Below, one piece after another: positions 497 through 22,465 of a stretch of 50,907 nt of DNA (the stretch's first letter is position 1; each line of letters starts with the position of its first letter). Below the pieces are notes generated by a model. The model was not told the DNA's origin, made no database searches, and was given only the letters and a program-made list of their open reading frames with translations. The stretch comes from Nitrospirales bacterium (GTDB lineage Bacteria; Nitrospirota; Nitrospiria; Nitrospirales; UBA8639). Both the position numbers and the translations under genes were made by a program. Location: positions 1 to 50,907 of the forward strand of contig JAJDBQ010000061.1 in NCBI GenBank assembly GCA_029261255.1, written 5' to 3'.

Positions 497-1450
497 TTAC
501 CGGAACGCCCCTTGCCGATAAAGCCGCCAAAACGTAGTGATACCAGCCCAAATGGGATGCTTCCGCTGCGCAGACGTCAACTCAACCTTAACCCCAGAAT
601 GCCGTTCAATTTTCCAAATAAGATAGTCGGCTCCGCCTTGAAAGGTATAAGCCGCCTTCATCAGGCGTAAAATCGATAAACACTTCCCCTGAACGGTTCG
701 AACCACCCACCCAATTCGATTCTTCGCCCGCTCCCAACTCGAATATTCCACCTCATACATTTTGCTATCGGCGACCTGAATCACCGTGACGTTTGGGAAA
801 TACCCTGCAAGCACCGCACCGGCGGCTCGTTCATAATAATCTTGATTACTTTCCCACAATGTCGCAATTCGCCCTTTCGATTCAGCACGTAATTCCGCGC
901 CATAACTGAGGGCCAGCCCAATGCTCCATATATCTTTGGCCGTAAAATCTTCGGACATCTGCGGGAGAACATTTCCCAAAAAAGTGACCACCGCACTCCC
1001 CAAACCCGAAATAATTCGTTGACTCATCTCTTGGCTGGGACATGCCATGACAGCCGTGGGCTGTGCAAAGCGCCCCCAAAAATAGGAATGAAACCATTTG
1101 GGTGTCACACTTCGCTCAAAATCCTCTAACGACAAGACTGCATATTTCATCCGCACGGTATGGCCTTCGACATCAACCTCTCCATAAAACACATTGGGAG
1201 GAAGCCACCCGTTAAGACGCGCCATCCAAGCTGAGGGATACACCGCCGCATATTGATCGACGATGACATAACAATCCACTAAGCCATTTTGATCCGTACC
1301 AGCTCGCAAACACGAGCCATAGAGTAAAATACCTTGCACGGCCTGACCGTATTTATTGGCAAGAAAATTCCCTGCTGCCTGAATGGAATCAGGAATAAGC
1401 TGCGCACTCGGCCGGCCAACGATATCCAGAATTGTTGTAGAAGAAGCCAT
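497..1450 (-). CDS. Nucleotidyltransferase-fold protein in lipid head-group operon
   Basis: 317 aa. Residues about 35-65 carry a nucleotidyltransferase signature: LLYGSCLRAGTDQNG and then DCYVIVD, matching the hG[GS]...[DE]h[DE] pattern of the polymerase-beta superfamily. The rest is a mixed alpha/beta protein with no other recognised domain and no signal peptide. The start lies only 2 bases after the stop of the upstream lipid kinase, so the two are probably translationally coupled. Kinase, nucleotidyltransferase and CDP-alcohol phosphotransferase together resemble in content the Caulobacter cpgABC genes for charged sphingolipid head groups (from memory). The exact substrate is unknown. Confidence 0.6.
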   Translation of the reverse strand: MASSTTILDIVGRPSAQLIPDSIQAAGNFLANKYGQAVQGILLYGSCLRAGTDQNGLVDCYVIVDQYAAVYPSAWMARLNGWLPPNVFYGEVDVEGHTVRMKYAVLSLEDFERSVTPKWFHSYFWGRFAQPTAVMACPSQEMSQRIISGLGSAVVTFLGNVLPQMSEDFTAKDIWSIGLALSYGAELRAESKGRIATLWESNQDYYERAAGAVLAGYFPNVTVIQVADSKMYEVEYSSWERAKNRIGWVVRTVQGKCLSILRLMKAAYTFQGGADYLIWKIERHSGVKVELTSAQRKHPIWAGITTFWRLYRQGAFR

Positions 1451-1452
1451 AG

Positions 1453-2418
1453 CTACTCAGACTTCAATCGGACAAAAGAAAGCTCTCCAGGAGAATCCAG
1501 GATGAGTGGTTTCTGAGGATTGGAAGACGTATACACCTCACCATCTAAGACAAACCCACTGTCAAAACTCAAACGAATTTCAGAGAGGTTTTCGCTCATA
1601 TACCCGTGATTCACAGTCGCAAGAGCATGTGTTTTCCCACGAAGTAATTTTGGTAAGACTCGCCATAAATGCCGATAAGGCACACGGAGACTGGTAAATC
1701 GCAAGGTCCCTAAATTCTTGCCCCAAAAAGGTTTCATCCCTAAAAACAAGCGATCCAACGTGGTCACCAATAACACTAAGTACTCTTCCTCAGTAGATGG
1801 CTTTTCTCCAGCTGCAACGCGCGCACTGATGGGATTCAATCCTTTTCGTGAGCCAGTCGCCAACGCGAATAAAAATTTGAGAAGTATCAGGCCAGCACCC
1901 CATTCCCCCAGTCGCCCAATTGATTGCTTTGTTTGAAGGCCCAATTGAGTTCCATGGTAAATGGCTCCAGCTCCGAAAAACATGCCGTGTAGAGGTTCTC
2001 GTTCTTCTGGGAAACGAATCCGAAGAATCGGGCGTGTTTCAGTATATGTTTGGGGATGGGAGACCTGCGCTTCGGTAAGAAGTTCCTCCAGGGTCTTCGG
2101 TTCAAATTTCCCCAACCCCACATCACCCGCCATCAGATTGGCCGTCCCTGCTGGCAACAGCGCTAAACTCGGCATCGATGGGAATGGGTGATGATGAAAC
2201 AAAGCCCCCATGGTGGCTTGAATAGTTCCATCCCCTCCAATGACCACCACACAATCAACTTGCTCTTGGGCAAAGACTTTTAGGGCTTCGAGAATATCCG
2301 TTGGGGTATGGATTTCGGCCTTTGCGACCTCGGGATGTTGAGCAAACACGTCTAGAAACAGATTGGGCTTGCGTTTATTCCGACCACTTAGCGGATTATG
2401 AAGGATTCCCACTCGCAT
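1453..2418 (-). CDS. DAGK-domain lipid kinase, probable ceramide/sphingoid kinase
   Basis: 321 aa, normal length for the diacylglycerol/sphingosine kinase catalytic family. The N-terminus MRVGILHNPLSGRNKRK is the usual start of this fold. The nucleotide-binding GGDGT lies near residue 80 and LPAGTANLMAGDVGL near 105-120, as in YegS/DgkB-like kinases. Known reaction of the family: ATP-dependent phosphorylation of a lipid hydroxyl. Caulobacter uses a DAGK-type ceramide kinase encoded in its sphingolipid locus, and here the gene sits among sphingolipid genes, so ceramide or a sphingoid base is the likely substrate. Diacylglycerol remains possible. It ends 2 bases before the next gene. Confidence 0.72.
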   Translation of the reverse strand: MRVGILHNPLSGRNKRKPNLFLDVFAQHPEVAKAEIHTPTDILEALKVFAQEQVDCVVVIGGDGTIQATMGALFHHHPFPSMPSLALLPAGTANLMAGDVGLGKFEPKTLEELLTEAQVSHPQTYTETRPILRIRFPEEREPLHGMFFGAGAIYHGTQLGLQTKQSIGRLGEWGAGLILLKFLFALATGSRKGLNPISARVAAGEKPSTEEEYLVLLVTTLDRLFLGMKPFWGKNLGTLRFTSLRVPYRHLWRVLPKLLRGKTHALATVNHGYMSENLSEIRLSFDSGFVLDGEVYTSSNPQKPLILDSPGELSFVRLKSE

Positions 2419-2585
2419 CTTAGAAGAAGTAAGGAGTCAGAAGTGAGTAGTGAGTCGCAAAAGAAAAAGAAATGAAAATCCCCTCAAAAGAAGTGAGTAG
2501 CACCAGAGTCAGTAACGACAAATCCCGTCTTCTTTCTCTCTATGGACTTCTTACTTTTTACTTCTCACTTTGCACTTCTTACTTG
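2419..2585. repeat. Purine-rich microrepeat with inverted copies
   Basis: The gap between the lipid kinase and the CDP-alcohol phosphotransferase holds several copies of an AAGTGAGTAG-like motif at 2424-2500. Reverse-complement copies (ACTTCTTACTTTTTACTTCT and relatives) lie at 2545-2583, running into the 3' end of the upstream gene. Arms can pair imperfectly into a long hairpin in the polycistronic RNA. No gene is visible. The element may be a simple extragenic repeat or a processing/stability signal. Confidence 0.45.
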
Positions 2586-3796
2586 ATCGTGGCAGGAGGG
2601 TTCGTAAACACTCGGACGGCTAAGGCGTCTCGGCCATTCACCGGGTCAATTTCTGCGAGCCAGGAAGTGAGTGGTCCTTTCATGCTCTTCTCGAGCATCG
2701 CCATAGCTAATCTCCCTAAAAGAATCACCGTCGAAAGCACGGTCCAGATTGCGACAGCTTCTAAACCCAAATCTGGTCGTCCAATCAGGATACTGCCCGT
2801 CAAAAAAATCATATTGGGATTTCGTCGTGCGATGATGAGTCGAAAAAATGAATCAAAGGGCTTCCAACAAAAGATGACAAATCCTCCTAACCACCATTGA
2901 AAGATGCCTTCCACAATTCGCCCCAAAATATATCCAATCACGATGGCCCAGCAGGTGATCGCGAGAGTCAGGCTAGATAACAACGGTGCATACGAGACGA
3001 GTCCAATTCCCCAGGCTAGATACCAAAGAGGTGGATGGATTAAATCAATGCCATGGTCGAAAATATTGCCCAATTTCGTGGACGTGACCGTGACTCTCGC
3101 TAATTTTCCATCAACTGTATCCAGAAACGTCATCACCCATCCACAGGCAAGGCCAAGAGCAAAGTACCCGTAACTAAATAACACCCCTGCCACAATCACC
3201 AGGGCCAAACTTAAAGAGGTCACCTGATTGGGTGAAATTCCCGCCATCGCGCACAATCGGGTGGCCCATTGAGCAGGCACTGGCCACCAGAACTTTGTCA
3301 CGAAATCCGTCACACTTTTATAGGATCCAGAAAACAAATGTTGCTCCAAACGCGGTCGGTTGTCCTCGCGAATAGGAAAAACATAAGGTAAGTCAGTTTT
3401 TCGCAATTCATTAGAAAAGGACCCCGAAATATCGTTCAAGCTAACTCTTCTGACGTTAGGAATGTCGGCAAACTGCTCTGCCTGCATAGTCTCCGAAACA
3501 GAACGCGCCTCTGATGCTACAACATGAGCCACAACAGGCACAGCACGTCCGCCCAGCTCTATTTCGAGCATGACATTCTTGTCATTCGACAAACTACGAA
3601 ACACACGTTCGTCATAAATACAGTCTCCGCGAATGATGAGAACGGAACTCTCGGGAGGAATGTCCTCTAGATCAGACACAAACTGATAGTTGCCTATTCG
3701 ATCTAGCATTCGCCCCAATCGCTCTCGAGAGGTCAAATTCCACAAACGAATATCCGACTCATGACAGATGGACCAATAGATGCTCATCACACGCAT
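2579..3796 (-). CDS. CDP-alcohol phosphatidyltransferase with N-terminal nucleotidyltransferase-like domain
   Basis: 405 aa. The membrane half (about 165-400) holds the complete CDP-OH-P motif DxxDGxxARx8GxxxDxxxD: DTVDGKLAR, eight residues, then GNIFDHGID, followed by several hydrophobic segments. Enzymes with this motif move a phospho-alcohol from a CDP carrier to a hydroxyl, or a phosphatidyl group to an alcohol, at the inner membrane. The first 160 residues resemble a worn nucleotidyltransferase-like domain (VLIIRGDCIYDERV) without a visible GxGxR loop. That architecture recalls inositol-phosphate CDP-alcohol transferases. It lies 28 bases downstream of lptG. Likely job: joining a polar head group to ceramide or diacylglycerol; substrate not established. 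Confidence 0.75.
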   Translation of the reverse strand: MRVMSIYWSICHESDIRLWNLTSRERLGRMLDRIGNYQFVSDLEDIPPESSVLIIRGDCIYDERVFRSLSNDKNVMLEIELGGRAVPVVAHVVASEARSVSETMQAEQFADIPNVRRVSLNDISGSFSNELRKTDLPYVFPIREDNRPRLEQHLFSGSYKSVTDFVTKFWWPVPAQWATRLCAMAGISPNQVTSLSLALVIVAGVLFSYGYFALGLACGWVMTFLDTVDGKLARVTVTSTKLGNIFDHGIDLIHPPLWYLAWGIGLVSYAPLLSSLTLAITCWAIVIGYILGRIVEGIFQWWLGGFVIFCWKPFDSFFRLIIARRNPNMIFLTGSILIGRPDLGLEAVAIWTVLSTVILLGRLAMAMLEKSMKGPLTSWLAEIDPVNGRDALAVRVFTNPPATIK

Positions 3797-3824
3797 TGCC
3801 GTCCTTGAAGACTATCCACGAAAA

Positions 3825-4916
3825 TCACGCCTGTCCTCCATTACGAAAGTACACCCACCAAATGATGCCCGTCACCAACACGATCCCGAGAACTGGGAGA
3901 GCGGTCGTCAACAAGGCGGAAGCACCTAACAGTATTCCAACATTTTCCAATATTTCTGTGGTCAGATAATATCCAATACCCACCAATCCCCCGAGCATGA
4001 TCCGTTTGCCGGCCGTCGCACTGCGCAATGGTCCAAAAGCAAATGGCAACGCCACGAGTATCATGAGTCCCGTTTTCAAGGGCATGAAAATTTTGTCCCA
4101 GAGCGCGAGCTCATACCGCTGCACATTCTGTTGCTTACGTTCAAGGATTCCAATATAGCGGAAAAGATCAGACGGGGCGAGAGAAGACGCAGGGAGTGTT
4201 AATAATCGCATTTCTTCTCGATTAAACGGCGAATCCCACTCGAGGGTCGGGACGATTTCTTCTGTGATACGAGAACCTTCGATGGTTTTTTTCTGAATAT
4301 TTTTCAACACCCATTTTTGTGGATCCTGAACATCCGCTTCCTCGACAAAATAATAGGCCGTCATCTCGCCATTCTTATTGAATTCAAAAATATCGATATC
4401 GTGAGGAATTTCACCATACTGTAATGTCTTGATTCGAATATAACGCATGTCCTCTCGAAACCACAGGCCCTGTTTTCCTTGGTACACTTGTGAGTTGGAC
4501 AGCGCTAATGATCGAGAAATGTGGGCATATTGGTCTAATGTGGGCGTCACAAACTCTTCAAAGCAGGCGACAATTAACACAAAGACCATCCCCACTTGCA
4601 TGACCATCCCGGCTATTTGGAAATGAGAGATACCTCCAGCCTGCATCGCCAAGAGCTCCCGTCCATTTGCCAAGGCACCTAACGCCATAATGCTCCCTAA
4701 CAGTGCAATGAACGGTGAAAGCACCACAAAGCGCTCCGGCAGCGTCAGAAGGACGAATTCTCCAGCAGCTAAAAAGGTATAACGACCACTCCCCACTTCA
4801 TCTACTTCTTCAACAAAGACAAATAAACTAAACACCGCCATCAGAATCGCCAATACAGGTAAATATCCCCTGATGACACTGATCCAAAGGTAACGATGAA
4901 GAATAGGAATGTGCAT
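3825..4916 (-). CDS. lptG: LptG-type permease of the LPS/lipid export ABC transporter
   Basis: 363 aa, typical length of the YjgP/YjgQ family. Three transmembrane segments (about 10-30, 60-85, 100-125) precede a periplasmic beta-jellyroll region (about 130-265) and three C-terminal membrane segments. LptF and LptG pair with LptB to extract lipid from the inner membrane and pass it to LptC and LptA. It is the second permease gene after lptF, separated by 106 bases. The lptF-lptG order is normal, but continuing straight into a CDP-alcohol phosphotransferase and lipid kinase is not. Whether the cargo is LPS, anionic sphingolipid or both cannot be told from sequence. Confidence 0.8.
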   Translation of the reverse strand: MHIPILHRYLWISVIRGYLPVLAILMAVFSLFVFVEEVDEVGSGRYTFLAAGEFVLLTLPERFVVLSPFIALLGSIMALGALANGRELLAMQAGGISHFQIAGMVMQVGMVFVLIVACFEEFVTPTLDQYAHISRSLALSNSQVYQGKQGLWFREDMRYIRIKTLQYGEIPHDIDIFEFNKNGEMTAYYFVEEADVQDPQKWVLKNIQKKTIEGSRITEEIVPTLEWDSPFNREEMRLLTLPASSLAPSDLFRYIGILERKQQNVQRYELALWDKIFMPLKTGLMILVALPFAFGPLRSATAGKRIMLGGLVGIGYYLTTEILENVGILLGASALLTTALPVLGIVLVTGIIWWVYFRNGGQA

Positions 4917-5022
4917 GGTGAAAGGTTATAGAGGTCTTCGTTAATAACTCACTGTGAAGCCAATGGTGAGGCTAGATTCACGACTATCAATATGAGAGAT
5001 TCTGGGCTCTCACAGACTAGCG

Positions 5023-6084
5023 TTAGGAATGATGCCCCACGGAAAATCTAGGAAGACAAACAAACACACTCACCAGCGCCCCCAGCCCGATGACCATCCA
5101 CCACAGGCCGGGATAGATTGGAAGAGTGCCTTGCTCGACTAACGTCTTCACCATTAAACCCAAAAAATAGTACACAGCGAAAAGCACAGTGGCGGTGAAT
5201 ATTTTGGCATATTTACCTTTTCTCGGAGAGGACCGGCTCAGCGGTATGGCCATTAGTGCTAATAGAATCGTCGAAAATGGCGTTGAAAGCCGCCATTGAA
5301 GTTCGGCAACATCTTTTCGAGATTCAGACACAGACAACTGTTGGGTCGGTGCAGCCTTTCGTTTATATTCCGCAATTTTCTCTTGAGGCAAGATGGATAA
5401 CTGAGAGAACTTCGACATATGTGTCATGCCGCCATCACGTGTCAATTTGTATTCGAAACCATCATACAGCACAGGAATAGAGACTCCACTTTCAGCATGG
5501 TATTCTTCACTGGCCTTTTTTGCCGAAATAATCCGTAATTTATCGCCATGCTCACTTTGCACAAACACCTGATTCAATTGACGATGTTCTTGATCGATCC
5601 CCTCAGCAAATAAGACAAGCGAACCATCACGTCGTTCATAAAAATGGCCTGGCTCCAAATGACTGATGCCCAATCCAGCCTCGCCTTGCGCTTTTAATCG
5701 ATAGCTCTCTTCATAGGCTAACGGACGAAGATACAATGAAAAGACCCCCACAAGAATGGCCACACCGGCGGAAAGAAAAAAGATTACTCCCATCACACGG
5801 TAAGGACTGACTCCTGAAGCCAGGAGCGCTTTCATTTCCGAATCAGCATATAACCGGCCTAAGCCGACTATAATGCCAAAGTACAGCGCGACCGGCAGCA
5901 AGACTTCAAGCGCAATGCCCACCTTTAACACAATTAATTTTAAGAGCACGCTGGTTGAGAGAAGGGCATCGACGGCCTTGGCTAAAAAGATGACCCAACT
6001 ATAGCCAGCAAAGAGCACGATAAACAGCGCACACACCACCATGGAAGGCTTGAGAATTTCTCGAATGAGGTATCGATCCAACAT
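5023..6084 (-). CDS. lptF: LptF-type permease of the LPS/lipid export ABC transporter
   Basis: 353 aa. It begins MLDRYLIREILKPS, the usual LptF start, with paired membrane segments about 12-35, 45-75 and 95-120. A periplasmic domain (about 130-270) contains LEPGHFYERRDGSLVLFAE and ISAKKASEEY, and three more membrane helices close the protein. It heads a minus-strand run lptF-lptG-CDP-alcohol transferase-lipid kinase-nucleotidyltransferase. The 5' end faces a divergent nucleotidyltransferase only about 55 bases away, so both promoters must be compact or overlapping. Confidence 0.85.
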   Translation of the reverse strand: MLDRYLIREILKPSMVVCALFIVLFAGYSWVIFLAKAVDALLSTSVLLKLIVLKVGIALEVLLPVALYFGIIVGLGRLYADSEMKALLASGVSPYRVMGVIFFLSAGVAILVGVFSLYLRPLAYEESYRLKAQGEAGLGISHLEPGHFYERRDGSLVLFAEGIDQEHRQLNQVFVQSEHGDKLRIISAKKASEEYHAESGVSIPVLYDGFEYKLTRDGGMTHMSKFSQLSILPQEKIAEYKRKAAPTQQLSVSESRKDVAELQWRLSTPFSTILLALMAIPLSRSSPRKGKYAKIFTATVLFAVYYFLGLMVKTLVEQGTLPIYPGLWWMVIGLGALVSVFVCLPRFSVGHHS

Positions 6085-6141
6085 TTAATTCTTCCCAATT
6101 ACACCTTTACATTTGTCCTACCCGATGGTACTACTCTTTTG

Positions 6142-6870
6142 ATGAAAGCCGTCATTCTTAGTGCTGGCCAGGGCAAACGGTTGCTCCCACTTACACAAGA
6201 CCAGCCCAAATGCGCCATTCCTATCCATGGCCGTTCCATTTTGGAATGGCAAATCAATGAATTACTCAAGTTCGGCGTCAGCCCCATTCATGTGGTTGTG
6301 GGATTCGGGGCGTCCACCGTGGAAAAGATTATCGGCAATTATAACAGCAGCCATGCCATTCACACCTTGTACAATCCCTTTTATGCGCTGGCCGATAATC
6401 TTATGAGCTGTTGGACGGCTCGACATGAAATGATGGACGATTTCATCTTATTGAATGGGGATACCCTCTTTGAAACCGCTGTCCTTGAACATGTGTTACA
6501 GGCGCCGCCAGCCCCCATTACGTTAGTGACCGATCAAAAATCACAATATGATGCTGATGATATGAAAGTCGTCGTCCAGGGCACTCAGCTTGTACGAATT
6601 GGCAAAACCTTGCCGTTAGAACAGGTGAATGGCGAATCCATTGGCATGATAAGGTTTCAAGATGCAGGGCCACAGTTATTTCGCTCAACAATCGAAGACC
6701 GTGTGCGACAACCAGAATCGCTTAAGCAATGGTATCTTTCTCTCATTGATGAACTGGCACAAAAAAACCAAGTCTCTACGGTTTCGATTAAAGGATTCAC
6801 CTGGGCTGAAATCGATAACCCAGCCGACTTACAACAGGCCGAAACCCTACTGAAACCTTTTAGTATGTAA
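6142..6870 (+). CDS. LicC/HddC-like sugar or choline-type nucleotidyltransferase
   Basis: 242 aa. The N-terminus MKAVILSAGQGKRLLPLT matches the nucleotide-binding loop GxGxRxxPxT of sugar-phosphate nucleotidyltransferases. PKCAIPIHGRSILEWQI supplies the following substrate-side Lys, and FILLNGDTLF carries the metal-binding Asp; VDxxxD-like WAEIDNPADL is near the end. Small members of this type include LicC (CTP:phosphocholine cytidylyltransferase). ATG 6142 is preferred to the preceding TTG at 6139. It stands alone on the plus strand between two minus-strand lipid operons. A CDP-activated alcohol from this enzyme could feed the CDP-alcohol phosphotransferase nearby; that link is inference. 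Confidence 0.65.
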   Translation: MKAVILSAGQGKRLLPLTQDQPKCAIPIHGRSILEWQINELLKFGVSPIHVVVGFGASTVEKIIGNYNSSHAIHTLYNPFYALADNLMSCWTARHEMMDDFILLNGDTLFETAVLEHVLQAPPAPITLVTDQKSQYDADDMKVVVQGTQLVRIGKTLPLEQVNGESIGMIRFQDAGPQLFRSTIEDRVRQPESLKQWYLSLIDELAQKNQVSTVSIKGFTWAEIDNPADLQQAETLLKPFSM

Positions 6871-6948
6871 CGTCGACTCGCTTCTTTATCTGCTCGCGAT
6901 CGGCTGATTTTTTTCTTTCGAAAATCCCTCATTCAATTCGACGTTGCT

Positions 6949-7770
6949 TCAAGCACTAATGGGTCGTGTGCGTTCTCGCTTCGATAAAATTTGTTCAACG
7001 AGTGCGAGATCTTCAACAGTATCCACATCAACGGCCGCTTCAGGAAAGGGTAGAATCACTTCTTGAATGGAAAGCCCCATACGCTGACTGAGTTCAGCAA
7101 GCGCATCTGACAACGTTAATTTTCCCAGCACATATCGAAGCAGCATGCGCCATCCAAGCCGACGAATCAACCGAATAGGCCGTTTCCGCTCACGTTCAAC
7201 CTGCGTCCAAAATTCCACCAACCGCTCAGCTTTTGATGTACCAAGGAGGAACAAATTGCACCCACAATAGCCTCCCCCTTTGAATCGAATCACGGTTCGC
7301 TTCGATTCGGGATACGCTTTTGCGACCACAGCATAGGGCACTAATGCCACGGCTACATCAGCCTGAGCCTGACTCGCCTTTTGCAGGAAATATTCCACCA
7401 TCTCAACCGTCAATAACGCATGATCAGCGGTGGTGACAAGGAGAGGAAGATCCTGAGAAGATTGCTCTATAAAACTTTTTACACTCGCACTGGGACCTTG
7501 CTGAGGAGCGACCCAACGGATCATTTCTTTTTCAACGAGATCACGTAAAACAGGTTGTTCTTCCACGGCTTCCCAAGAAGGTCCACACAAGACTCGTTGC
7601 TTAACAAGGCTCGATAATTCAAGCGTATTCAGCACCCGCTCCACCATGGGCACTCCTCCCACGTTGGCCAATACCTTGATAGGCACTCCAGTGGCCTCTG
7701 CGACTGGGTCTCGACCACTACGAGCACCTGCTAAGATTAAGGCAGTCACAGGACCTGGATCAGACTTCAT
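6949..7770 (-). CDS. MobA-like NTP transferase
   Basis: 273 aa. ALILAGARSGRDPVAEATG is a variant of the LAGGxSxRxG nucleotide loop of MobA/IspD-like transferases. PIKVLANVGGVPMVERVL carries the next conserved Lys, TTADHALLT is the metal-binding Asp block, and VDVDTVEDL lies near the C-terminus. It is first in reading order after the GNAT gene on the same strand, 31 bases downstream, and converges with the plus-strand nucleotidyltransferase. A role in activating a head-group alcohol or sugar phosphate for the sphingolipid is plausible. Molybdopterin work is unlikely, given the neighbours and the altered loop. Confidence 0.6.
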   Translation of the reverse strand: MKSDPGPVTALILAGARSGRDPVAEATGVPIKVLANVGGVPMVERVLNTLELSSLVKQRVLCGPSWEAVEEQPVLRDLVEKEMIRWVAPQQGPSASVKSFIEQSSQDLPLLVTTADHALLTVEMVEYFLQKASQAQADVAVALVPYAVVAKAYPESKRTVIRFKGGGYCGCNLFLLGTSKAERLVEFWTQVERERKRPIRLIRRLGWRMLLRYVLGKLTLSDALAELSQRMGLSIQEVILPFPEAAVDVDTVEDLALVEQILSKRERTRPISA

Positions 7771-7801
7771 CTTGCTCTCATCTTATTCAATTGAGTAAAC
7801 G

Positions 7802-8926
7802 TCAATTGAGTAATTTCTCGTATATACGATACGTTTTATATGGTTCAGCTCCCAATGACTCAAGAACATGCCGCATACGTTTATTGTCTTCTAAAATCCA
7901 AGAGAGTTCGACCTGCTCAATCCCTTTTCGCAAGCCGGCTTGTCTGACAGCTTCAATCATTCCGTACGCCATCAACGCCCCCATCGGACTCGACTGAAAC
8001 CGCCGGCTGACCCCCATTAACAACACACGTCCTGTTTTAGGATAGGCCACCTTCAAGCGCCACAGAATCTTGAGCCAACCCAACGGCCACAATCGACCTT
8101 GAAGATCATGAATCACCTCATGCAGATTAGGAAACGCCACGAGCATGGCACATGGGACGCCATCAATTTCGGCTATTTGCACAAAATCATCTTCCAGCAA
8201 TAACTTCATTTGCTGGCCCAATTCAGCCAATTCGGCGTCAGTGATTGGCAAAAACCCCCAATTCTCTGACCACGCTTCCTCATAAATTTCCTTAATAATG
8301 GCTAACTCTTCCCGCAAATGTTTTCTCCGTAACGGACGGATCTGAACAGATTTTTTCGCTTTACTTAAAAATCTGGCTACCCCGGAAGGGAGAGGGAAAT
8401 GTATCCCAAGGCGATAGGCCAGCATATCCTGAGCTCGTTGATACCCATTGGCTTCGACCTGATGCGGATAATAAGGTCGTGCATGCCCCATCATCACCAT
8501 CGGAGGATTCTCATCCCCCGCAATTAATAACCCACATTCCTGGTTAATCGACAAATTGAAAGGCCCTTGTACCGTTGTCATCCCCTCCCCTCGAAGCCAT
8601 CCTTCTGCTGCCTCAAACAAAGCTTGAAAGACTTCAGGTGAATCTTCTGCTTCCAAGGAACCAAAAAACCCTGTACGAGAGTCATAACGTGAGAGATGTA
8701 ATTCATCGATTTGAGCACTGATCCGTCCCACGGGCGTGGAACCTCGATAGGCCAGCCAACATTGCCAACGAGCATGTTCAAAATAAGGGTTTTTTTTGGA
8801 AAAAAAATGAAGCCGCTCTATCGACAGCGGTGGGACCCATGCAGGATCTGATTGATACAGTCCAGCGGGAAAATGAACAAACTGTTTCAGACCGACCCGA
8901 TCCTTGACCGATTCAACCCGAATCAA
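7802..8926 (-). CDS. bcerS: GNAT-type bacterial ceramide synthase candidate
   Basis: 374 aa, twice the usual single GNAT domain. The start MIRVESVKDRVGLKQFVHFP and the blocks YQSDPAWVPPLSIERLHFFS, PFNLSINQECGLL and GHARPYYPHQVEANGYQ are typical of the large GNAT-related family to which Caulobacter bCerS belongs. That enzyme N-acylates the sphingoid product of Spt with a fatty acyl-CoA. The C-terminal half (about 185-370) is a second GNAT-like lobe. The gene is 101 bases downstream of the membrane hydroxylase and on the opposite strand from spt, acp and FAAL, within 6 kb. Assignment rests on remembered family features plus the unusually complete context. Confidence 0.68.
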   Translation of the reverse strand: MIRVESVKDRVGLKQFVHFPAGLYQSDPAWVPPLSIERLHFFSKKNPYFEHARWQCWLAYRGSTPVGRISAQIDELHLSRYDSRTGFFGSLEAEDSPEVFQALFEAAEGWLRGEGMTTVQGPFNLSINQECGLLIAGDENPPMVMMGHARPYYPHQVEANGYQRAQDMLAYRLGIHFPLPSGVARFLSKAKKSVQIRPLRRKHLREELAIIKEIYEEAWSENWGFLPITDAELAELGQQMKLLLEDDFVQIAEIDGVPCAMLVAFPNLHEVIHDLQGRLWPLGWLKILWRLKVAYPKTGRVLLMGVSRRFQSSPMGALMAYGMIEAVRQAGLRKGIEQVELSWILEDNKRMRHVLESLGAEPYKTYRIYEKLLN

Positions 8927-9027
8927 AATGACTGGCTCCAGCCCGCACGTGACTGTCGTACATTCAACACGGACTGCTTATAGGATTTGAAAGAATAATA
9001 CGTGAGAAAACCAAGCACCATCGAGGC

Positions 9028-9762
9028 CTACGGCTTCTGATCAGATAATTCGGCGACCCAGGGATATTGCAATCGCTCTTCATTCTGGTAACCCAAGTTC
9101 GACACAGTTTCACTGGCCAGGACCTTCTCGCCACTTGAATACAAACTACCGAATATACGATCACAGATAAGGCTCGTGATACCAAAGTTCCCTCGTTCAT
9201 TGTGGAAATGATGCAACACGTGATGATGTTTAATCCTTCTTAAAAACTTACTCTTAGGGTTTACACGAAGATGCTGCATGCAATGGCACAGTTCATACAC
9301 CATGAAACACGCCAAACCAGCCGCAAAAGACAGGGGGACACCCGCCACGCCAGCAAGACTCAACCCAATCGGAAAGGTGGCCACGACAATAGTGGGAAGA
9401 GTTGTTGTCGCTGACCCAAAGAGCACGCTCAAATCATTAGGATCCTGATGGTGATCATAGTGAATTCGCTTCCACAAAGCCGCAGTCCAAGGCGATCGGT
9501 ACAGATAGCGTCCATGCAAAATAAATCGATGAACGGTATATTCGACGAATGGATAGGCCAACAAGGTCACCACCACACTTCCAATCAAACGAAATTCAGA
9601 AACTGGGGCATATGGATAAATTACAAATGCCAAACCAATACTGCACACTAATAAGGCAAAATATATCTGGATACTTGGGTATGTCACGTACGCCCACATC
9701 AGATCGCGAAAGACCATGCGATCCAGATGATATTTTTCTTGATACCACTGCTTCGTTACCAC
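9028..9762 (-). CDS. Fatty acid hydroxylase / sterol desaturase superfamily membrane enzyme
   Basis: 244 aa. Histidine boxes for a di-iron centre are visible: HRFILH, HYDHH, HCMQH and HHHVLHHFHNERGNFG. They lie between membrane segments (about 30-75 and 115-145). The family hydroxylates or desaturates membrane lipids, including sphinganine C4 and ceramide 2-hydroxylation in eukaryotes. Here it is first gene of a minus-strand run with the GNAT ceramide synthase and an NTP transferase, so a hydroxylated sphingoid base or N-acyl chain is the simplest prediction. A carotenoid or hopanoid substrate is less likely from context. Confidence 0.72.
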   Translation of the reverse strand: MVTKQWYQEKYHLDRMVFRDLMWAYVTYPSIQIYFALLVCSIGLAFVIYPYAPVSEFRLIGSVVVTLLAYPFVEYTVHRFILHGRYLYRSPWTAALWKRIHYDHHQDPNDLSVLFGSATTTLPTIVVATFPIGLSLAGVAGVPLSFAAGLACFMVYELCHCMQHLRVNPKSKFLRRIKHHHVLHHFHNERGNFGITSLICDRIFGSLYSSGEKVLASETVSNLGYQNEERLQYPWVAELSDQKP

Positions 9763-10100
9763 GCTAGAGCCACCATCCTTTTACCACTTGATTGCACGCC
9801 TCACCTTGTGCCGAACCCGATCAACAACCTATTCGCCGCTTAGAGAGATTATAGAAATCTCTTCAAGAAGCCACAAGAAGAGATGAAGAAAGACCGAGAT
9901 GTCTCACCCATTGCCTATGACACATGTTTTCACAATGACAAGAGCTCATCAAATGGTCATGTTGAGACAAGATTTTGGCATACAAGAGAACGTATAATTT
10001 GAACACATTTCAGAATTAATCGCACATGTTTTGAATGGACAAACAAGCTTCAGATTTTCTCATAGACACTTCAATGACGGTTTGGGTATAAACCATTCTG
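9763..10100. other. Divergent intergenic region with small dyads
   Basis: No gene is visible in 338 bases. At 9844-9862, AGAGATT and AATCTCT form a 19-base dyad with a 5-base centre, a possible operator or stem. A perfect -10 box TATAAT sits at 9993-9998, facing the HIT gene about 100 bases downstream, but no good -35 box is found at normal spacing. The region drives the hydroxylase run leftwards and the HIT gene rightwards. Confidence 0.4.
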
Positions 10101-10535
10101 ATGAATACGACAATGAAAAAGTTTGAGTATCCAGAATCCTGCGTCAAAGAATTTCAACAGTGGGTTGTGCTGTTGCGACCTCAGCAGGTCACACTTGGTG
10201 CACTAATTTTGATTTGTCGAGAGGAGGCCACGGCATTTTCCAAGATTAGTCCTGCAGCTTTTGGGGAACTGCCCATGATTATTCGTGAAATTGAGACGAA
10301 TGTATCACGTATTTTTACTTACAGCAAGATCAATTATCTCATGTTAATGATGGTCGACCCAGAGGTGCACTTTCATGTCATTCCCCGATATGAGGCCCCA
10401 CAAACATATTATCAGCAGCAATTTCTTGACCAAGGATGGCCCGGTCCCCCAGATCTCAAAAATTCTAATGCCATATCACGAGAAGTCCATCATGAAATCT
10501 TGAGCCATCTCAAAAAGACTTGGGTCCCACTCTGA
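10101..10535 (+). CDS. HIT-family nucleotide hydrolase/transferase-like protein
   Basis: 144 aa, normal for HIT proteins. The signature near residue 95 is VHFHVIPRYE: the first two histidines of the HxHxHxx triad are present and the third position is changed, as in some FHIT/Ap4A-phosphorylase relatives. WPGPPDL further on resembles the tail of that group. HIT proteins split dinucleoside polyphosphates or nucleotide-alkyl phosphodiesters. Cleaning up adenylate by-products of the fatty acyl-AMP ligase next door would be fitting, but this is only inference. It is followed by a 198-base gap with its own sigma-54 promoter, so it is probably not cotranscribed with the ligase. Confidence 0.65.
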   Translation: MNTTMKKFEYPESCVKEFQQWVVLLRPQQVTLGALILICREEATAFSKISPAAFGELPMIIREIETNVSRIFTYSKINYLMLMMVDPEVHFHVIPRYEAPQTYYQQQFLDQGWPGPPDLKNSNAISREVHHEILSHLKKTWVPL

Positions 10536-10685
10536 GTGACAATAACCGAAAATGACATAATTCTATAGATTTCTTGTTGCCAAATAGACTCATTCAGTGA
10601 TTATTTTGCGACACAGTTCAAAAGAATATCAGCGATTTTATTTCTAGAAGTCCTTTGTTTATGTTGATTATTCAAAGAATTTCAG

Positions 10686-10701
10686 TGGCACGACATTTGC
10701 T
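10686..10701 (+). promoter_or_regulatory. Sigma-54 (RpoN) -24/-12 promoter for the ceramide operon
   Basis: TGGCACG (10686-10692), four bases, then TTGCT (10697-10701) matches the sigma-54 consensus TGGCACG-N4-TTGCW at every fixed base, with correct GG to GC spacing. The predicted start is about 12 bases downstream, near 10712, leaving a leader of about 22-34 bases before the FAAL start. I saw no other comparably good match upstream of genes in the window. Sigma-54 transcription needs an enhancer-binding activator, so this operon would be conditionally switched on. Confidence 0.72.
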
Positions 10702-10733
10702 TATTCATTATTGACCTTTACTGTCATACGTAT

Positions 10734-12536
10734 GTGAGTATCAATATGCCTAGCACAAACACTCAAAAAACAAATATCACGGCAACGCCAACACAACCTG
10801 CGATTAACCTTCGCCCAGGCAATTTTTCTACGCTTTCTGAAGCATTAGATTATGCTGCATGTGGTAATACTGGAAGTAACTTCTATTCAGGCCGAGGGCA
10901 CTTAACACACGTCCTTCCTTATGCGGAATTGCAATCTCAATCAAAAAACCTAGCAAAAAGACTTAATGGGTTAGGCTTGCAGCGTGGATCTCGGATCGCA
11001 TTGGTTGCGGATACCACACCTGACTTTCTTCGGTTCTTTTTTGCATGTCAGTATGCTGGGCTTATTCCTGTACCCCTCCCAATATCTATTCATTTAGGCG
11101 GGCATGAGGTTTACGTCAAACAGCTGGCTCGATTGCTTGAGAGTTGCCAAGCCTCGATCGCGATGGCCCCAGAAGGGTTTGTCCCGTTTTTAGAGGAAGC
11201 TGCAACTGAATTGAATCTTCAACTCATTGGTGGCCCTGAGACCTTTGCGTCGCTAGAAGAAAGTCAAATACCTCTTCAGCCTCTCGAGTCCCATGAACTG
11301 GCCTATATCCAGTACACTTCTGGCAGTACTCGATGGCCAAGAGGCGTTGAAGTCACCCAATCTGCGGTGATGACAAATCTAGCGGGAATCATTCAGCATG
11401 GCCTGAAAGTTCAAACCGGAGATCGTTGCGTCTCGTGGTTACCCTTTTATCATGACATGGGCTTGGTTGGTTTTGTCCTTGGGCCTATGGCGTCACAACT
11501 CTCGGTTGATTATCTCAGCACGAGAGATTTTGCGATGCGGCCACGGCAATGGCTCAAACTGATGACCAACAGCAAAGCGACGATTTCTTTTAGCCCGTCC
11601 TTTGGCTATGAATTGTGCGTCCGACGCTTGCGTGAAGATTCTTCAAGTGAGTCATATGATCTCAGTGCATGGCGTATTGCAGGAGTAGGCGCTGAAACAA
11701 TTCGAGCCGATAGTTTGGGGAGATTTGCCAAGGCACTAGAGCCCTCAGGATTTAATCAACAAGCATTCCTCGCTTGTTACGGAATGGCAGAATGTTCTTT
11801 GGCTATTAGCTTTGCTCCACTACATTCTGGCATTAGCGTAGATCTCGTGGATGCTGATGAATTATCCAATAATCGACTAGCCTCACCGATTTCTTCCAGC
11901 GTGATTGGCGACGAAGAGGCTCGTGTGAGCAAATTCGTGAACTGTGGAGTGCCTCTTCCAGGCTATGAAGTAGAAATACGTGATGATATGGGCATCGCCT
12001 TATCTGATAGGGAAAGTGGGACGATATATGTCCGCGGAGCTAGCACTATGACAGGGTATTTCAACGACCCGGTCTTAACGCAAGAGGCTCTGTCTGAAGA
12101 TGGATGGCTCAACACCGGAGATATTGGCTATTGGATTGATGGGAGCCTCGTGATCATTGGCCGCTCAAAAGATATGATTATCATCAATGGTCGGAATATT
12201 TGGCCTCAGGATCTGGAATACGTCGCAGAGCAGCAACCAGAGGTGCGGCCTGGCGACTCTTCCGCTTTTTCTGTATCTGGACCAGATGGGGATGAAGTTG
12301 CCATCATGGTTGTACAATGTCGGGAAACAAATTCTGAAAAACGAGACGACCTGATTCATCGCTTAGGCTCACGAATCCAAAAAGAACTTTCAATTCCTAG
12401 CTATATTGAGCTTATCCCACCGAGGACTCTACCTCGAACCTCTTCGGGTAAATTATCACGATCACGCGCGAAGTCTGACTTCCTCAAGCGCGTGGAGTGG
12501 GAAACCCTAGCACCAGCACTGTCTCTTTCAGCATAA
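10734..12536 (+). CDS. Fatty acyl-AMP ligase (FAAL), acyl-ACP loading enzyme for sphingolipid synthesis
   Basis: 600 aa ANL-superfamily enzyme. The phosphate-binding loop TSGSTRWPRGVEVT is near residue 195, and SWLPFYHDMGLVG is the block typical of FAALs and long-chain acyl-ACP ligases. YGMAEC, the hinge and GRSKDMIIINGRNIWPQDLE follow, with C-terminal RTSSGKLSR carrying the catalytic Lys. It would make acyl-AMP and pass the chain to the ACP encoded 1 kb downstream; Caulobacter has the same pairing in its ceramide locus. GTG 10734 or ATG 10746 are both possible starts; neither has a clear RBS. It is the first gene of the run FAAL-reductase-ACP-Spt. Confidence 0.85.
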   Translation: MSINMPSTNTQKTNITATPTQPAINLRPGNFSTLSEALDYAACGNTGSNFYSGRGHLTHVLPYAELQSQSKNLAKRLNGLGLQRGSRIALVADTTPDFLRFFFACQYAGLIPVPLPISIHLGGHEVYVKQLARLLESCQASIAMAPEGFVPFLEEAATELNLQLIGGPETFASLEESQIPLQPLESHELAYIQYTSGSTRWPRGVEVTQSAVMTNLAGIIQHGLKVQTGDRCVSWLPFYHDMGLVGFVLGPMASQLSVDYLSTRDFAMRPRQWLKLMTNSKATISFSPSFGYELCVRRLREDSSSESYDLSAWRIAGVGAETIRADSLGRFAKALEPSGFNQQAFLACYGMAECSLAISFAPLHSGISVDLVDADELSNNRLASPISSSVIGDEEARVSKFVNCGVPLPGYEVEIRDDMGIALSDRESGTIYVRGASTMTGYFNDPVLTQEALSEDGWLNTGDIGYWIDGSLVIIGRSKDMIIINGRNIWPQDLEYVAEQQPEVRPGDSSAFSVSGPDGDEVAIMVVQCRETNSEKRDDLIHRLGSRIQKELSIPSYIELIPPRTLPRTSSGKLSRSRAKSDFLKRVEWETLAPALSLSA

Positions 12537-12588
12537 CTTGCCAGGATAGATCTGCCGAAACTGGCTCCGTCCTTGTTGCCTGTTTCTT

Positions 12589-13530
12589 ATGCCAACTATT
12601 GCCCTTACTGGAGCGTCAGGCTTTATCGGTCAAGCGATTGCCAACCGGTTTTGCAAAGCAGGGCTCAAGGTACGAGGGTTGGTTCGGACTTCGAGAAAAA
12701 TTCCTCCATTCGAACATCCTAATTTTACGCGGATTGAAGGTAGTCTCGATAAAATCGAGAGTCTTCATCAACTTCTCGAAGGTTGCACTGGCCTTGTCCA
12801 TAGCGCAGGGACGATTCGTGGATTAAAGAAAAACGATTTTTGGCCCACTAACGTTCAAGGCATCGACAATCTTCTTCACGTGTGCCTCGCTCAATCGCAC
12901 CCTCCTCGAATTGTCCATCTCTCCTCCCTTGCCGCAAGAGAACCTTCCCTCTCTCCCTACGCCTGGAGCAAGCGCGAAGGCGAACTCCTGATTGAACGAA
13001 ATGCAGGCCCACTCCATTGGACCATTATTCGTCCACCTGCTGTATATGGGCCAAATGATAAGGCACTCCTTCCTCTTTTTAAATTGGGAAAAAAAGGCAT
13101 TGGCTTGCGACTGGGATCTCCAGCCAGTAAATTTTCACTGATCCATGTGCATGACTTAACTGATGTCATTTTGCGTAGTCTCGAAGTAGACGGAATTCAT
13201 TCAGCTACATTTGAGGTTGATGATGGCTTTCTGAATGGGTATTCCTGGGAATCGGTCTTTCGGGTCATCAACCCTCATATGAAAATACACCTAGCTGTTC
13301 CAGGAAAATTTTTATGGTTCATGGGGAAGAGCAATGAAATACTCTCGCGCGTATTCCGCTATTCTCCTCTTTTTACGACCGGCAAAGTCGCTGAACTCAC
13401 TCATACCAATTGGGTCTGCAACTCTTCGGATGTTCGCCAGAAACTCGGGTGGACTCCGCAAATTCCCTTAGAAGAAGGCTTGCGCCATCTCTTTGCATCG
13501 GATAGTCTCATGGTAGCCAAGAAGAACTAG
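12589..13530 (+). CDS. cerR: NAD-dependent epimerase/dehydratase-type ceramide reductase candidate
   Basis: 313 aa extended short-chain dehydrogenase. GASGFIG at residues 8-14 is the dinucleotide-binding loop, HLSSLAARE leads to the catalytic pair Y124-A-W-S-K128, and PPAVYGPND follows. In Caulobacter a protein of this family lies between spt/acp and the acyl-ACP ligase and reduces the 3-keto group of the oxidised ceramide. The gene order here (FAAL, reductase, ACP, Spt) is the same set. It starts 52 bases after FAAL. An epimerase for a sugar cannot be excluded, but the position makes the lipid role more likely. Confidence 0.75.
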   Translation: MPTIALTGASGFIGQAIANRFCKAGLKVRGLVRTSRKIPPFEHPNFTRIEGSLDKIESLHQLLEGCTGLVHSAGTIRGLKKNDFWPTNVQGIDNLLHVCLAQSHPPRIVHLSSLAAREPSLSPYAWSKREGELLIERNAGPLHWTIIRPPAVYGPNDKALLPLFKLGKKGIGLRLGSPASKFSLIHVHDLTDVILRSLEVDGIHSATFEVDDGFLNGYSWESVFRVINPHMKIHLAVPGKFLWFMGKSNEILSRVFRYSPLFTTGKVAELTHTNWVCNSSDVRQKLGWTPQIPLEEGLRHLFASDSLMVAKKN

Positions 13531-13579
13531 GTTCTACCCGGTTGGATTCCATCTCAACACCTGTACAGTTGCAACAATC

Positions 13580-13825
13580 ATGATGACCTATGCTGAAATA
13601 TTGCCACAGCTTGTCGAAACATTGAAGCCCTATGCCAAAAAAGTTGGGCACCCAAAAGAAACCACTGATCTCGTATCGGAACTTGGACTCGATTCACTTC
13701 AAGTCATGCAGGTACTGCTCAAAATCGAAGACCAGTTTGATATCTCCATTCCTTTGAATAACTTGCCCAATATCCGCACCGTCAAAGATTTAGGGCAGGA
13801 AATTGAGCAGTTACTGAAAGCCTAA
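13580..13825 (+). CDS. Dedicated acyl carrier protein of the sphingolipid operon
   Basis: 81 aa acidic four-helix ACP. The phosphopantetheine site is Ser39 in ELGLDSLQVM, with helix III sequence IPLNNLPNIRTVKDL. It ends 2 bases before spt, the tightest spacing in the operon, indicating matched production of both proteins. The expected role is to hold the acyl chain made by the FAAL and present it to serine palmitoyltransferase. Fatty-acid-synthase AcpP usually has a longer DSLDTVELVM-like helix II start, so this looks specialised. Confidence 0.85.
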   Translation: MMTYAEILPQLVETLKPYAKKVGHPKETTDLVSELGLDSLQVMQVLLKIEDQFDISIPLNNLPNIRTVKDLGQEIEQLLKA

Positions 13826-13827
13826 CG

Positions 13828-15036
13828 ATGTCTTTATTTGAAAAATTTCATTCGATTCAACAGGCCCGTGAAGAAATATTGAAAAGTGGCATCAATCCCT
13901 TTCATCTCACCATTGAAAAAATCAATTCTGCCACTGAAGGCGTCATTAACGGACGCGCGACTATTCTCGTTGGCACCAATAACTATTTGGGCTTGACGTT
14001 TCATCCAGACTGCATCCAAGCCGGGCAAGAAGCTTTGGCACATGAAGGCACTGGCACGACTGGTTCGAGAATGGCAAATGGTTCATTTTCGAGTCACAGT
14101 GACCTTGAGCGCGCGATCGAAGACTTTTACGGCATGCCCCATGCCATCGTCTTTTCAACCGGCTATCAAGCCAATCTCGGCGTACTCTCCGCCTTAGCAG
14201 GACCGGGTGATACGCTTTTAATTGATGGAGATTCACATGCCAGCATTTATGATGGGTGCCGGCTAGGAGGCGCTGAGGTTCTTCGATTTAAACACAACGA
14301 TGTCACTGATTTGGATAAAAAGCTCCGACGATTAGGAGATCGAAGTCGTCGAACGCTCATCATCGTTGAAGGTATCTATAGTATGTTAGGCGATCGAGCC
14401 CCTCTGAAAGAAATTGTTGCTGTCAAGCAACAATACGGAGCCACACTCGTTGTTGACGAAGCCCATTCTCTAGGAGTTCTTGGGAAACAAGGGCGAGGCC
14501 TCGCTGAGGAAGCCGACGTCGAAGACGGTGTCGATTGCATCGTTGGCACGTTTAGCAAAAGTTTAGGATCGACCGGAGGATTCGGTGTCAGCATTCATCC
14601 TGAATTTGAATTAATTCGCTATACAAGCCGCCCCTATATTTTCACAGCATCTCCTTGTCCATCAGTCGTCGCCTCAACCAAGGTGGCGCTACGAATTATG
14701 CGCGAAACGCCTCAACTCCGCCAACAATTATGGGAGAACGCCCAAACACTCTATGATGGATTAGAAAAAATTGGCTATACGTTGGGAGCCGAGGTGGGAC
14801 CGGTAATTGCGGCCATGATTCCAACGAAAGAACAGGCATTGGCCATGTGGCAAGGATTGCTAGAACAAGGGATATATGTGAACCTGATGATTCCACCTGC
14901 TACGCCGAATGGCGAAAGCCTCTTACGATGCAGCGTGAGTGCCGCCCATACTCCGAAACAACTCGAAACCATTATCCAAAGCTTTTCCAACGTCCATTCC
15001 TCGTTAAAGGAGCATGCTCCATCTCTCCAAACGTAG
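13828..15036 (+). CDS. spt: Serine palmitoyltransferase (alpha-oxoamine synthase)
   Basis: 402 aa, PLP-dependent alpha-oxoamine synthase. Visible blocks: GTNNYLGLTFHP, GTGTTGSRMANGS, FSTGYQANLGVL, VVDEAHSLGVLG (cofactor Asp and His) and GTFSKSLGSTGG, whose Lys at residue 244 binds PLP. The FSKSLGSTGG form and the missing biotin genes favour Spt over KBL or BioF. It condenses serine with an acyl thioester to give 3-ketosphinganine, the first committed step to ceramide. It directly follows its ACP. A BioF-type activity is the main alternative. Confidence 0.85.
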   Translation: MSLFEKFHSIQQAREEILKSGINPFHLTIEKINSATEGVINGRATILVGTNNYLGLTFHPDCIQAGQEALAHEGTGTTGSRMANGSFSSHSDLERAIEDFYGMPHAIVFSTGYQANLGVLSALAGPGDTLLIDGDSHASIYDGCRLGGAEVLRFKHNDVTDLDKKLRRLGDRSRRTLIIVEGIYSMLGDRAPLKEIVAVKQQYGATLVVDEAHSLGVLGKQGRGLAEEADVEDGVDCIVGTFSKSLGSTGGFGVSIHPEFELIRYTSRPYIFTASPCPSVVASTKVALRIMRETPQLRQQLWENAQTLYDGLEKIGYTLGAEVGPVIAAMIPTKEQALAMWQGLLEQGIYVNLMIPPATPNGESLLRCSVSAAHTPKQLETIIQSFSNVHSSLKEHAPSLQT

Positions 15037-21803: not shown

Positions 21804-22465
21804 TACGAGGGATCGTCTTTGATTTCGATGGTACCTTGGTTGACTCAAATGACATAAAAGTTCAGACCTTTTACGACGTTACCAAGTGCCATGATCCAAA
21901 GGGTTCGACCGTTACCGGGGTTCTCAAGAAATTCCCCAATAAAGACCGGCATGGTCTTTTTCATGCCATTATTGGAGAGCTCTTTGCCAAAAACCAGATT
22001 GAAGACACTAAAGATTTAGAAACCTTGGCGACTCAATTGACTGAGGATTATACGGTCAAATGTGAAAAAGCTATTGAAAACTGTGAGGAAGTACCAGGAA
22101 CATCTGAAGCCTTGCGGTGGATCTCTGGGCAACGCCTCCCAATATTTATAAATTCTCGGACGCCAACAACGACCCTCAAGCGATTGATAACCTCACGGTC
22201 TCTTGATTCCTACGTTTCTGATATTTACGGAGCCCCGGCAACCAAGCTCGAAAATTTCCGACGTATTCAAAATCAGCTCCACGCGCAACCGAGGGAAATA
22301 CTTTTTGTGGGAGACAGCGATGATGATCAAGAGACTGCTCAGGAGGCCGGCTGCCACTTTATTGGAGTCGTCTTACGGGATACACCTCGTTTTTCTGACC
22401 CTCAACCAGAACAGAGGATAACCAATCTCTCTCAACTGCAACATATCCTGGAAGCCATGCACTGA
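21800..22465 (+). CDS. HAD-superfamily sugar phosphatase
   Basis: 221 aa. FDFDGTLVDS carries the nucleophile Asp and the acid Asp; FINSRTPTTTLKRL holds the motif II Ser; FVGDSDDDQETAQEAG is motif IV. A four-helix cap lies between motifs I and II. Overlap with the NeuB-cupin gene suggests that it removes the phosphate from an ulosonate-9-phosphate, as in Kdn or mammalian-type sialic acid pathways. A general phosphoglycolate-type phosphatase is the alternative. Confidence 0.75.
   Translation: MIRGIVFDFDGTLVDSNDIKVQTFYDVTKCHDPKGSTVTGVLKKFPNKDRHGLFHAIIGELFAKNQIEDTKDLETLATQLTEDYTVKCEKAIENCEEVPGTSEALRWISGQRLPIFINSRTPTTTLKRLITSRSLDSYVSDIYGAPATKLENFRRIQNQLHAQPREILFVGDSDDDQETAQEAGCHFIGVVLRDTPRFSDPQPEQRITNLSQLQHILEAMH

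Follow-up and report, generated by a model that had tools for sequence, protein, structure and literature searches.

A putative phosphosphingolipid locus of the proteobacterial type in a Nitrospirales bacterium

Does a member of the Nitrospirota possess the genes to make a ceramide, to furnish it with a charged head group and to export it? This question is raised by a locus of 14 genes located between positions 497 and 15036 of a 50,907-nt stretch of DNA, contig JAJDBQ010000061.1 of assembly GCA_029261255.1 (C209 in our numbering), which is referred to below as the window. The host genome is a metagenome-assembled genome (MAG) of a Nitrospirales bacterium with a size of 4.36 Mb in 251 contigs. 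Most of what is known about the phosphosphingolipid pathway comes from Caulobacter and related bacteria. We consider it likely that the locus is a complete phosphosphingolipid locus of the proteobacterial type, because its five ceramide genes are arranged as in Escherichia coli BL21(DE3) and its head-group and Lpt genes parallel those in the clusters of Caulobacter and Roseomonas; because of the model match and tree position of its Spt, the Tam41 fold of one protein, the counterparts of CpgD residues, a relative of CEPT1, and four LptF/G genes plus LpxC in the genome; and because of synteny in related genomes and the joint occurrence of Spt and CerS. Gene identity, two protein folds, synteny and phylogeny were observed directly. 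The predicted product is a ceramide phosphoglycerate, probably hydroxylated, and the locus would have export permeases of its own.

An earlier note, made from the sequence of the window, described a complete ceramide locus. The genes it named were all found where it had placed them, as open reading frames whose lengths are plausible for intact genes, with matching families, and the locus proved to be larger, including also an LptF/LptG pair, a hydroxylase, a HIT-domain protein and a 317-aa protein. The plus strand carries, in this order, the genes for the HIT-domain protein, a fatty acyl-AMP ligase (FAAL), a CerR-type reductase, an acyl carrier protein (ACP), and Spt. Leading away from this set on the minus strand are the genes for the hydroxylase, a GNAT protein, a MobA-like protein, the LptF- and LptG-like permeases, a CDP-alcohol phosphotransferase, a DAGK-type kinase, and the 317-aa protein; a CpgD-like gene (6139–6870) stands on the plus strand amid these minus-strand genes. 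Pfam families were assigned by a scan of 19 window genes, from 497 to 22465.

The serine palmitoyltransferase (SPT; gene spt, 13828–15036, plus strand), scored 631.7 bits against the NCBIfam betaproteobacterial SPT model NF047599 (cut-off 500). Its best relatives in PDB are SPTs (up to 451 bits; best Kbl, 235 bits), and it shares 56% identity with Spt of E. coli BL21 (ECD_02854), an enzyme that has been assayed (PMC9386255), 35% with E. coli Kbl, and 30% with E. coli BioF. In a 42-row tree, it was placed within the SPT clade; a branch supported at 100/99 separates it from the BioF and Kbl of E. coli and from the BioF of the host genome. The tree comparison proposed in the earlier note thus favours an SPT: the model score and the 100/99 split reject an identity as BioF or Kbl, and by model and tree the window Spt is a true SPT. 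Should this oxoamine synthase use an amino acid other than serine, the product would be a 1-deoxysphingolipid, a sulfonolipid or another amino-lipid. The enzyme family does include cysteate acyltransferases, and deoxysphingolipids are reported from Black Sea waters (PMC11334938). Such a substrate is nonetheless quite improbable: Spt is nearest to SPTs by the model, in PDB and by comparison with the assayed BL21 enzyme, it falls in the SPT clade, and the kinase step encoded in the locus would, from its chemistry, need a C1-hydroxyl. With serine as its substrate, Spt would condense it with acyl-AcpR to 3-oxo-sphinganine.

The acyl donor would be prepared by the products of two neighbouring genes. 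The FAAL (acyl-AcpR synthetase AasR, CC_1165-like; 10734–12536, plus strand, start codon provisional) scored 789.5 bits against NCBIfam NF006624 (cut-off 600), is 47% identical to AasR of BL21 (ECD_02851), and would load a fatty acid onto AcpR. The latter, a dedicated ACP (13580–13825, plus strand; PF00550, E 1.4e-10), has a DSL motif at residue 38 and shares 52% identity over 42 aa with ECD_02853. Between them lies the gene for CerR, a CC_1164-like reductase of the epimerase family (12589–13530, plus strand; PF01370) with 36% identity to ECD_02852.

The presumed ceramide synthase, CerS (bCerS; 7802–8926, minus strand), is a GNAT protein with zero Pfam or NCBIfam matches. Sequence searches of PDB with this protein and with the 317-aa protein gave nothing, whereas fold searches gave matches for both. 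The AlphaFold model of the GNAT protein (38 sequences, pLDDT 89) matches tandem GNATs, from E 4.5e-16. The protein is 47% identical to E. coli YghO (ECD_02850), which has been paired with Caulobacter CC_1154 (PMC9386255); the link to CC_1154 runs via this published pairing and not via an alignment. In a CerS tree of 50 rows, rooted on 14 GNATs of a second Nitrospirota gene set (the triad, see below), it grouped with spt-linked proteobacterial CerS, including an E. coli YghO, and apart from the triad GNATs, while 11 sampled Nitrospirota cluster members formed one clade (97/95). The assignment to the bCerS clade made in the earlier note therefore stands as regards this grouping and is only partly tested, the tree containing no unrelated GNAT as an outgroup. 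CerS would add the second acyl chain and CerR would reduce the ketone, giving dihydroceramide; published accounts disagree on which of these two steps, acylation or reduction, precedes the other (PMC11324152; PMC11087976).

In the ACP-dependent pathway of the rhodobacterial type, aasR, cerR, acpR and spt are described as standing together and cerS as forming a separate unit (PMC11324152). The window has this arrangement, with the four genes on the plus strand at 10734–15036 and cerS divergent from them. So does E. coli BL21(DE3) (ECD_02850–02854), where yghO is divergent from aasR-cerR-acpR-spt and an LptF/LptG pair is present, as in the window; the window differs in having the hydroxylase and HIT genes between CerS and the AasR-CerR-AcpR-Spt set. 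An E. coli cluster like that of BL21 (L058) contained no match to the kinase, Tam41-like, CDP-alcohol, nucleotidyltransferase, hydroxylase or HIT genes in 25 kb. Among 5426 complete E. coli genomes, 4023 have a site that covers 80% or more of the query, the aasR-cerR-acpR-spt operon.

Five genes of the locus are related to head-group formation. The DAGK-type lipid kinase (1453–2418, minus strand; PF00781, E 1.3e-16) carries a GGDG motif at residue 61 and lacks CxxxCxxC, features published for CpgB (PMC10331486), which is the Caulobacter ceramide kinase CC_1160 (PMC11324152). By family and motifs the window protein agrees with CpgB; its specificity for ceramide is predicted only, and the product would be ceramide-1-phosphate. 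The 317-aa protein (497–1450, minus strand) yielded zero Pfam matches. For its structural model (10 sequences, pLDDT 84), the four best Foldseek matches are all to Tam41 (6ig4/6ig2; E 7e-10 to 9e-9, TMq 0.50–0.53), followed by aminoglycoside nucleotidyltransferases from E 4e-4. The Tam41 fold, that of a CDP-diacylglycerol (CDP-DAG) synthase, fits the CDP-DAG-synthase domain published for CC_1161 (CpgC), a protein required for ceramide phosphoglycerate (CPG) in Caulobacter (PMC11324152). In addition, the 317-aa protein is 35% identical to the product of a Roseomonas gene located beside spt and DAGK. This candidate CDP-ceramide synthase would probably activate ceramide-1-phosphate to CDP-ceramide.

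The CDP-alcohol phosphotransferase (CpgA/CC_1159-like; 2579–3796, minus strand; PF01066) has an extra N-terminal domain and the complete motif DTVDGKLARVTVTSTKLGNIFDHGID. Its nearest solved structure is CEPT1 (choline/ethanolaminephosphotransferase; E 7.6e-9), an enzyme known to transfer a small phospho-alcohol onto a lipid, with the CDP-linked form as the donor. Together with the second nucleotidyltransferase, a MobA-like, CC_1153-like protein (6949–7770, minus strand; PF12804, E 1.1e-14) that is 46% identical to the product of a Roseomonas cluster gene, it may build a phosphoglycerate or diphosphoglycerate head group.

Glycerate would be supplied in activated form by the CpgD/CC_1152-like cytidylyltransferase (6139–6870, plus strand; PF12804/PF00483), the proposed CDP-glycerate synthase. 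CpgD of Caulobacter (CC_1152/CCNA_01210) makes CDP-glycerate (PMC12275187; preprint PMC13228409). Residues R14, K24, N87, S90, N106, D108, M142, K156, S167 and W198 of the window protein fit CpgD residues R16, K26, N90, T93, N110, D112, M147, K161, S170 and W201 by motif and within-block spacing, not by direct alignment, with Ser in place of T93. All 22 aligned sequences, read by eye, keep these counterparts, position 90 being either Ser or Thr. Among the seven PDB sequences matched by the protein, none is named CpgD.

It follows from the substrate flexibility of nucleotidyltransferases and CDP-alcohol enzymes that ceramide could be made here and decorated with another anionic head group, such as phosphoglycerol or one derived from some other CDP-activated alcohol. 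Family membership does not predict the substrates of the phosphotransferase or the 6949–7770 protein, the nearest solved relatives of the former are choline/ethanolamine and inositol-phosphate enzymes, and the CpgD comparison is one of motif and spacing. Against this, the CpgD residues contacting CTP and glycerate have counterparts in the 6139–6870 protein and in all of the aligned sequences, and the gene set resembles CPG-linked clusters. A different head group is therefore unlikely, although less so than a non-serine substrate of Spt. The charged head group predicted in the earlier note is supported by this gene set and can be narrowed to a phosphoglycerate type, as a prediction.

A close parallel is the Caulobacter crescentus cluster CC_1168–CC_1152, which shares with the window, by published description and not sequence by sequence, aasR, cerR, acpR, spt, cerS, the ceramide kinase, CC_1161, CC_1159, CC_1152, CC_1153, LptF2 and LptG2. 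All 12 members of the Caulobacter-type CPG2 core (CC_1152–1156 and CC_1159–1165) have counterparts by family or fold, assigned through published descriptions; CC_1157, published as probably unrelated, was left out of the count. The clusters described from gamma- and betaproteobacteria retain these same two gene ranges, and in Caulobacter CPG2 requires CC_1159, CC_1153, CC_1152 and, partly, CC_1158 (PMC11324152). The differences include the phylum and the presence of an Scs7-type hydroxylase and a HIT gene inside the window locus, while the Caulobacter hydroxylase gene is reported to be distant. A plasmid-borne cluster of Roseomonas marmotae (L060) matched 11 of the 14 window genes by tblastn and contains an LptF/LptG pair by annotation, all within approximately 14 kb; it differs in gene order, in the presence of a metallophosphoesterase and in the absence of a hydroxylase match.

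Two further functions are suggested by the remaining genes. The LptG2-like (3825–4916, minus strand; PF03739, E 1.1e-58) and LptF2-like (5023–6084, minus strand; PF03739, E 1.9e-61) permeases form a second pair in the host genome, which has four LptF/G genes, one pair in the locus and one on another contig (C54). The locus LptG is 31% identical to lptG of the BL21 spt cluster and 22–23% to the C54 pair; the locus LptF is 32% identical to lptF of the BL21 spt cluster and 24% to one gene of the C54 pair. The locus pair is thus nearer to the BL21 spt-cluster pair (31–32%) than to the other pair of its own genome (22–24%). Since the genome encodes LpxC, lipopolysaccharide (LPS) is expected too, and LptF2/LptG2 may help to transport the anionic lipid, alongside LPS, to the outer membrane.

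For the FA2H/Scs7-type hydroxylase (9028–9762, minus strand; PF04116, E 1.5e-21), a PDB sequence search at E 0.01 matched yeast Scs7 alone (E 3.8e-11), a ceramide hydroxylase. The window enzyme would hydroxylate dihydroceramide, either on the fatty acyl chain or on the base. In a set of 41 named loci that include a linked CerS, the hydroxylase stands beside CerS in eight of eight from Nitrospirota versus one of 33 others, some of which end at contig ends; it is absent from the otherwise complete set of one relative (G216). The sphingolipid hydroxylase of Caulobacter is reported to be encoded by a distant DesA-type gene, CC_0202 (PMC11324152). The HIT-domain gene (10101–10535, plus strand; PF01230) also occurs in the clusters of Roseomonas, Pelagibius and Pseudomonas asuensis.

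The distribution of the locus was surveyed in 395 Nitrospirota genomes, with identities of at least 61% for Spt and at least 52% for CerS. Both were present in one and the same set of 14 genomes, every one of which belongs to the taxonomic order of the window's host. These genomes represent 10 of 28 members of a family-level group (f1), all three members of another (f4), and one member of a third (f2); all five genomes of the window's genus, including the window genome, are among the f1 carriers. All 14 genes were present in seven of 13 relatives examined (G368, G320, G191, G252, G302, G206 and G133), in G133 on two adjoining parts of a single contig and in G206 with the 317-aa gene cut by the end of the examined stretch. 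G216 has 13 of the 14 genes and G137 has 12 up to a contig end; contig ends truncate the sets of G380, G352 and G356. The locus might be a binning artefact, that is, a proteobacterial contig in a Nitrospirota MAG, as Spt is most similar to a betaproteobacterial SPT model. This explanation is strongly disfavoured, to the point of being hardly credible: the locus and its order recur in other Nitrospirota, including the single-contig assemblies G320 and G252, the ELM1-family gene follows spt in five relatives as well, and the nine best matches among named records are all from Nitrospirota.

Among the named relatives are the Nitrospirales MAG NPIRA06 and ‘Nitrospira sp. HKST-UBA08’. The description of the host as a likely Nitrospira in the earlier note holds at the level of the order, by the nearest named records and a fragment of NxrA, and is less firm for the genus, the genome belonging to f1 while most sampled members of the order are in f2. 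A search of the genome for nitrite oxidoreductase with TIGR03479 gave sub-cut-off pieces only, and a 277-aa fragment at a contig end matches NxrA of Kuenenia (E 2.9e-115). Binning error aside, the host is probably a nitrite oxidiser.

Several points weigh against reading the locus as a complete phosphosphingolipid locus of the known type. The CC_ assignments run via published descriptions, BL21 and Roseomonas rather than via alignment with Caulobacter proteins, and the reactions of CC_1161, CC_1159 and CC_1153 are described as unproven even in Caulobacter (PMC11324152). In the CpgD comparison, K161 and S170 are nine residues apart and K156 and S167 of the window protein 11; because these distances differ, the pairing of K156/S167 rests on the S170–W201 spacing. 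None of the 19 scanned genes belongs to the families of the metallophosphoesterase (CC_1158), flippase (CC_1166) or LptC2 (CC_1168), the rest of the genome not having been searched. CC_1158 is reported to be non-essential, and CC_1158, CC_1166 and CC_1168 are all missing from the clusters published for N. eutropha, A. vinelandii and P. luteola (PMC11324152), so these three genes are not defining. One relative, G310, has only FAAL-CerR-ACP-Spt in the 40 kb examined, without linked head-group genes there, and its CerS is approximately 530 kb away. In the single-contig assembly G252, of the same genus, spt is frame-broken and appears as two tblastn pieces (L051, 14254–15445), either by assembly error or by decay. 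The MAG itself is 88.3% complete and 4.2% contaminated. Finally, each reaction proposed for this organism is inferred, as are the head group, the transport, and the hydroxylation together with its site; the lipid products are predicted from genes.

The phylum also contains a second set of ceramide genes. At E 1e-30, a CerS-like match was present in 162 of the 395 genomes; apart from the 14 cluster genomes, each of which has a single CerS-like match, 148 genomes carry a more distant CerS-like gene, without overlap. In 14 loci picked from the listings (L147–L160; e.g. L152:7159–10431), CerR-like and Spt-like genes are adjacent in every case, and the CerS-like gene adjoins them in 13, lying approximately 16 kb off in G047. 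This CerR-Spt-CerS triad has the same three gene types as the window, with Spt 38–44% identical to that of the window. Of the triad Spts, three were tested, and their best match is the Bacteroidota SPT model (558–573 bits, below the cut-off of 640). No matches by similarity to the ACP, kinase or head-group genes were found in the 14 triad loci, and one of them (L151) has one weak FAAL-like match (65 bits). The phylum may thus use two ceramide pathways of different origin, which did not overlap in the 395 genomes. This forms part of a wider reading to which we give even chances: that the outer membrane of nitrite oxidisers in the Nitrospirales is covered by an anionic, hydroxylated phosphosphingolipid, which a self-contained 14-gene unit with a eukaryote-like ceramide hydroxylase makes and exports, while many other Nitrospirota use a separate, Bacteroidota-like three-gene route.

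The origin of the locus was examined in a 69-row Spt tree with 41 of 71 non-Nitrospirota named loci, for which five Nitrospirota triad Spts, which are Spt-like sequences, and the host's own BioF served as the outgroup. The Nitrospirota Spts stand among those of Pseudomonadota, Thermodesulfobacteriota and other phyla, and the backbone is partly unresolved. Fifteen of 17 Nitrospirota cluster Spts form a clade (92/91) and two lie outside it in the best tree; a single clade for all 17 was not rejected (AU p 0.265). Direct transfer from ammonia-oxidising Nitrosomonas, as suggested by the name ‘BetaP’ of the SPT model, was not supported, the Spts of Nitrosomonadaceae forming a clade of their own (100/100; nine rows, including one betaproteobacterium without a stated family) away from Nitrospirota. 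The pattern fits an old acquisition that was kept in part of the Nitrospirales.

Several genes downstream of the locus are also worth recording. Directly after spt lies the ELM1-family (PF06258) gene for a protein of 818 aa (15123–17579). ELM1 homologs occur in 12 of the 71 non-Nitrospirota spt loci, two of them near full length at 38% identity, and this gene may be a functional partner. The stretch 20214–23327 encodes a NeuB-cupin protein, a HAD phosphatase and a cytidylyltransferase (PF02348), which together look like a nonulosonic-acid synthesis set. Further downstream, asparagine synthase-like genes at 29106–31034 and 34812–36770, with two glycosyltransferase genes between them, resemble surface polysaccharide loci.

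In the open-licence PMC literature, searched by titles and the beginnings of abstracts, no published treatment of a Nitrospirota sphingolipid was found, in agreement with the statement in the earlier note that such lipids are uncharacterised; an earlier listing of Nitrospirota in survey supplements is possible. According to the study of Black Sea waters, 38 phyla have Spt-like genes; no word of its main text starts with ‘nitrospir’ (PMC11334938). What is new is an unusually complete phosphosphingolipid locus of a known type, in a phylum for which no characterised sphingolipid was found. The locus predicts a membrane lipid class for members of the nitrite-oxidising Nitrospira group and offers a candidate lipid marker for wastewater and marine samples. 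It also provides a compact, contiguous set of genes, comprising synthesis, head group, hydroxylase and a second Lpt pair, in which the unproven steps of assembly and transport may be tested, among them the proposed role of a Tam41-type enzyme as a maker of CDP-ceramide.

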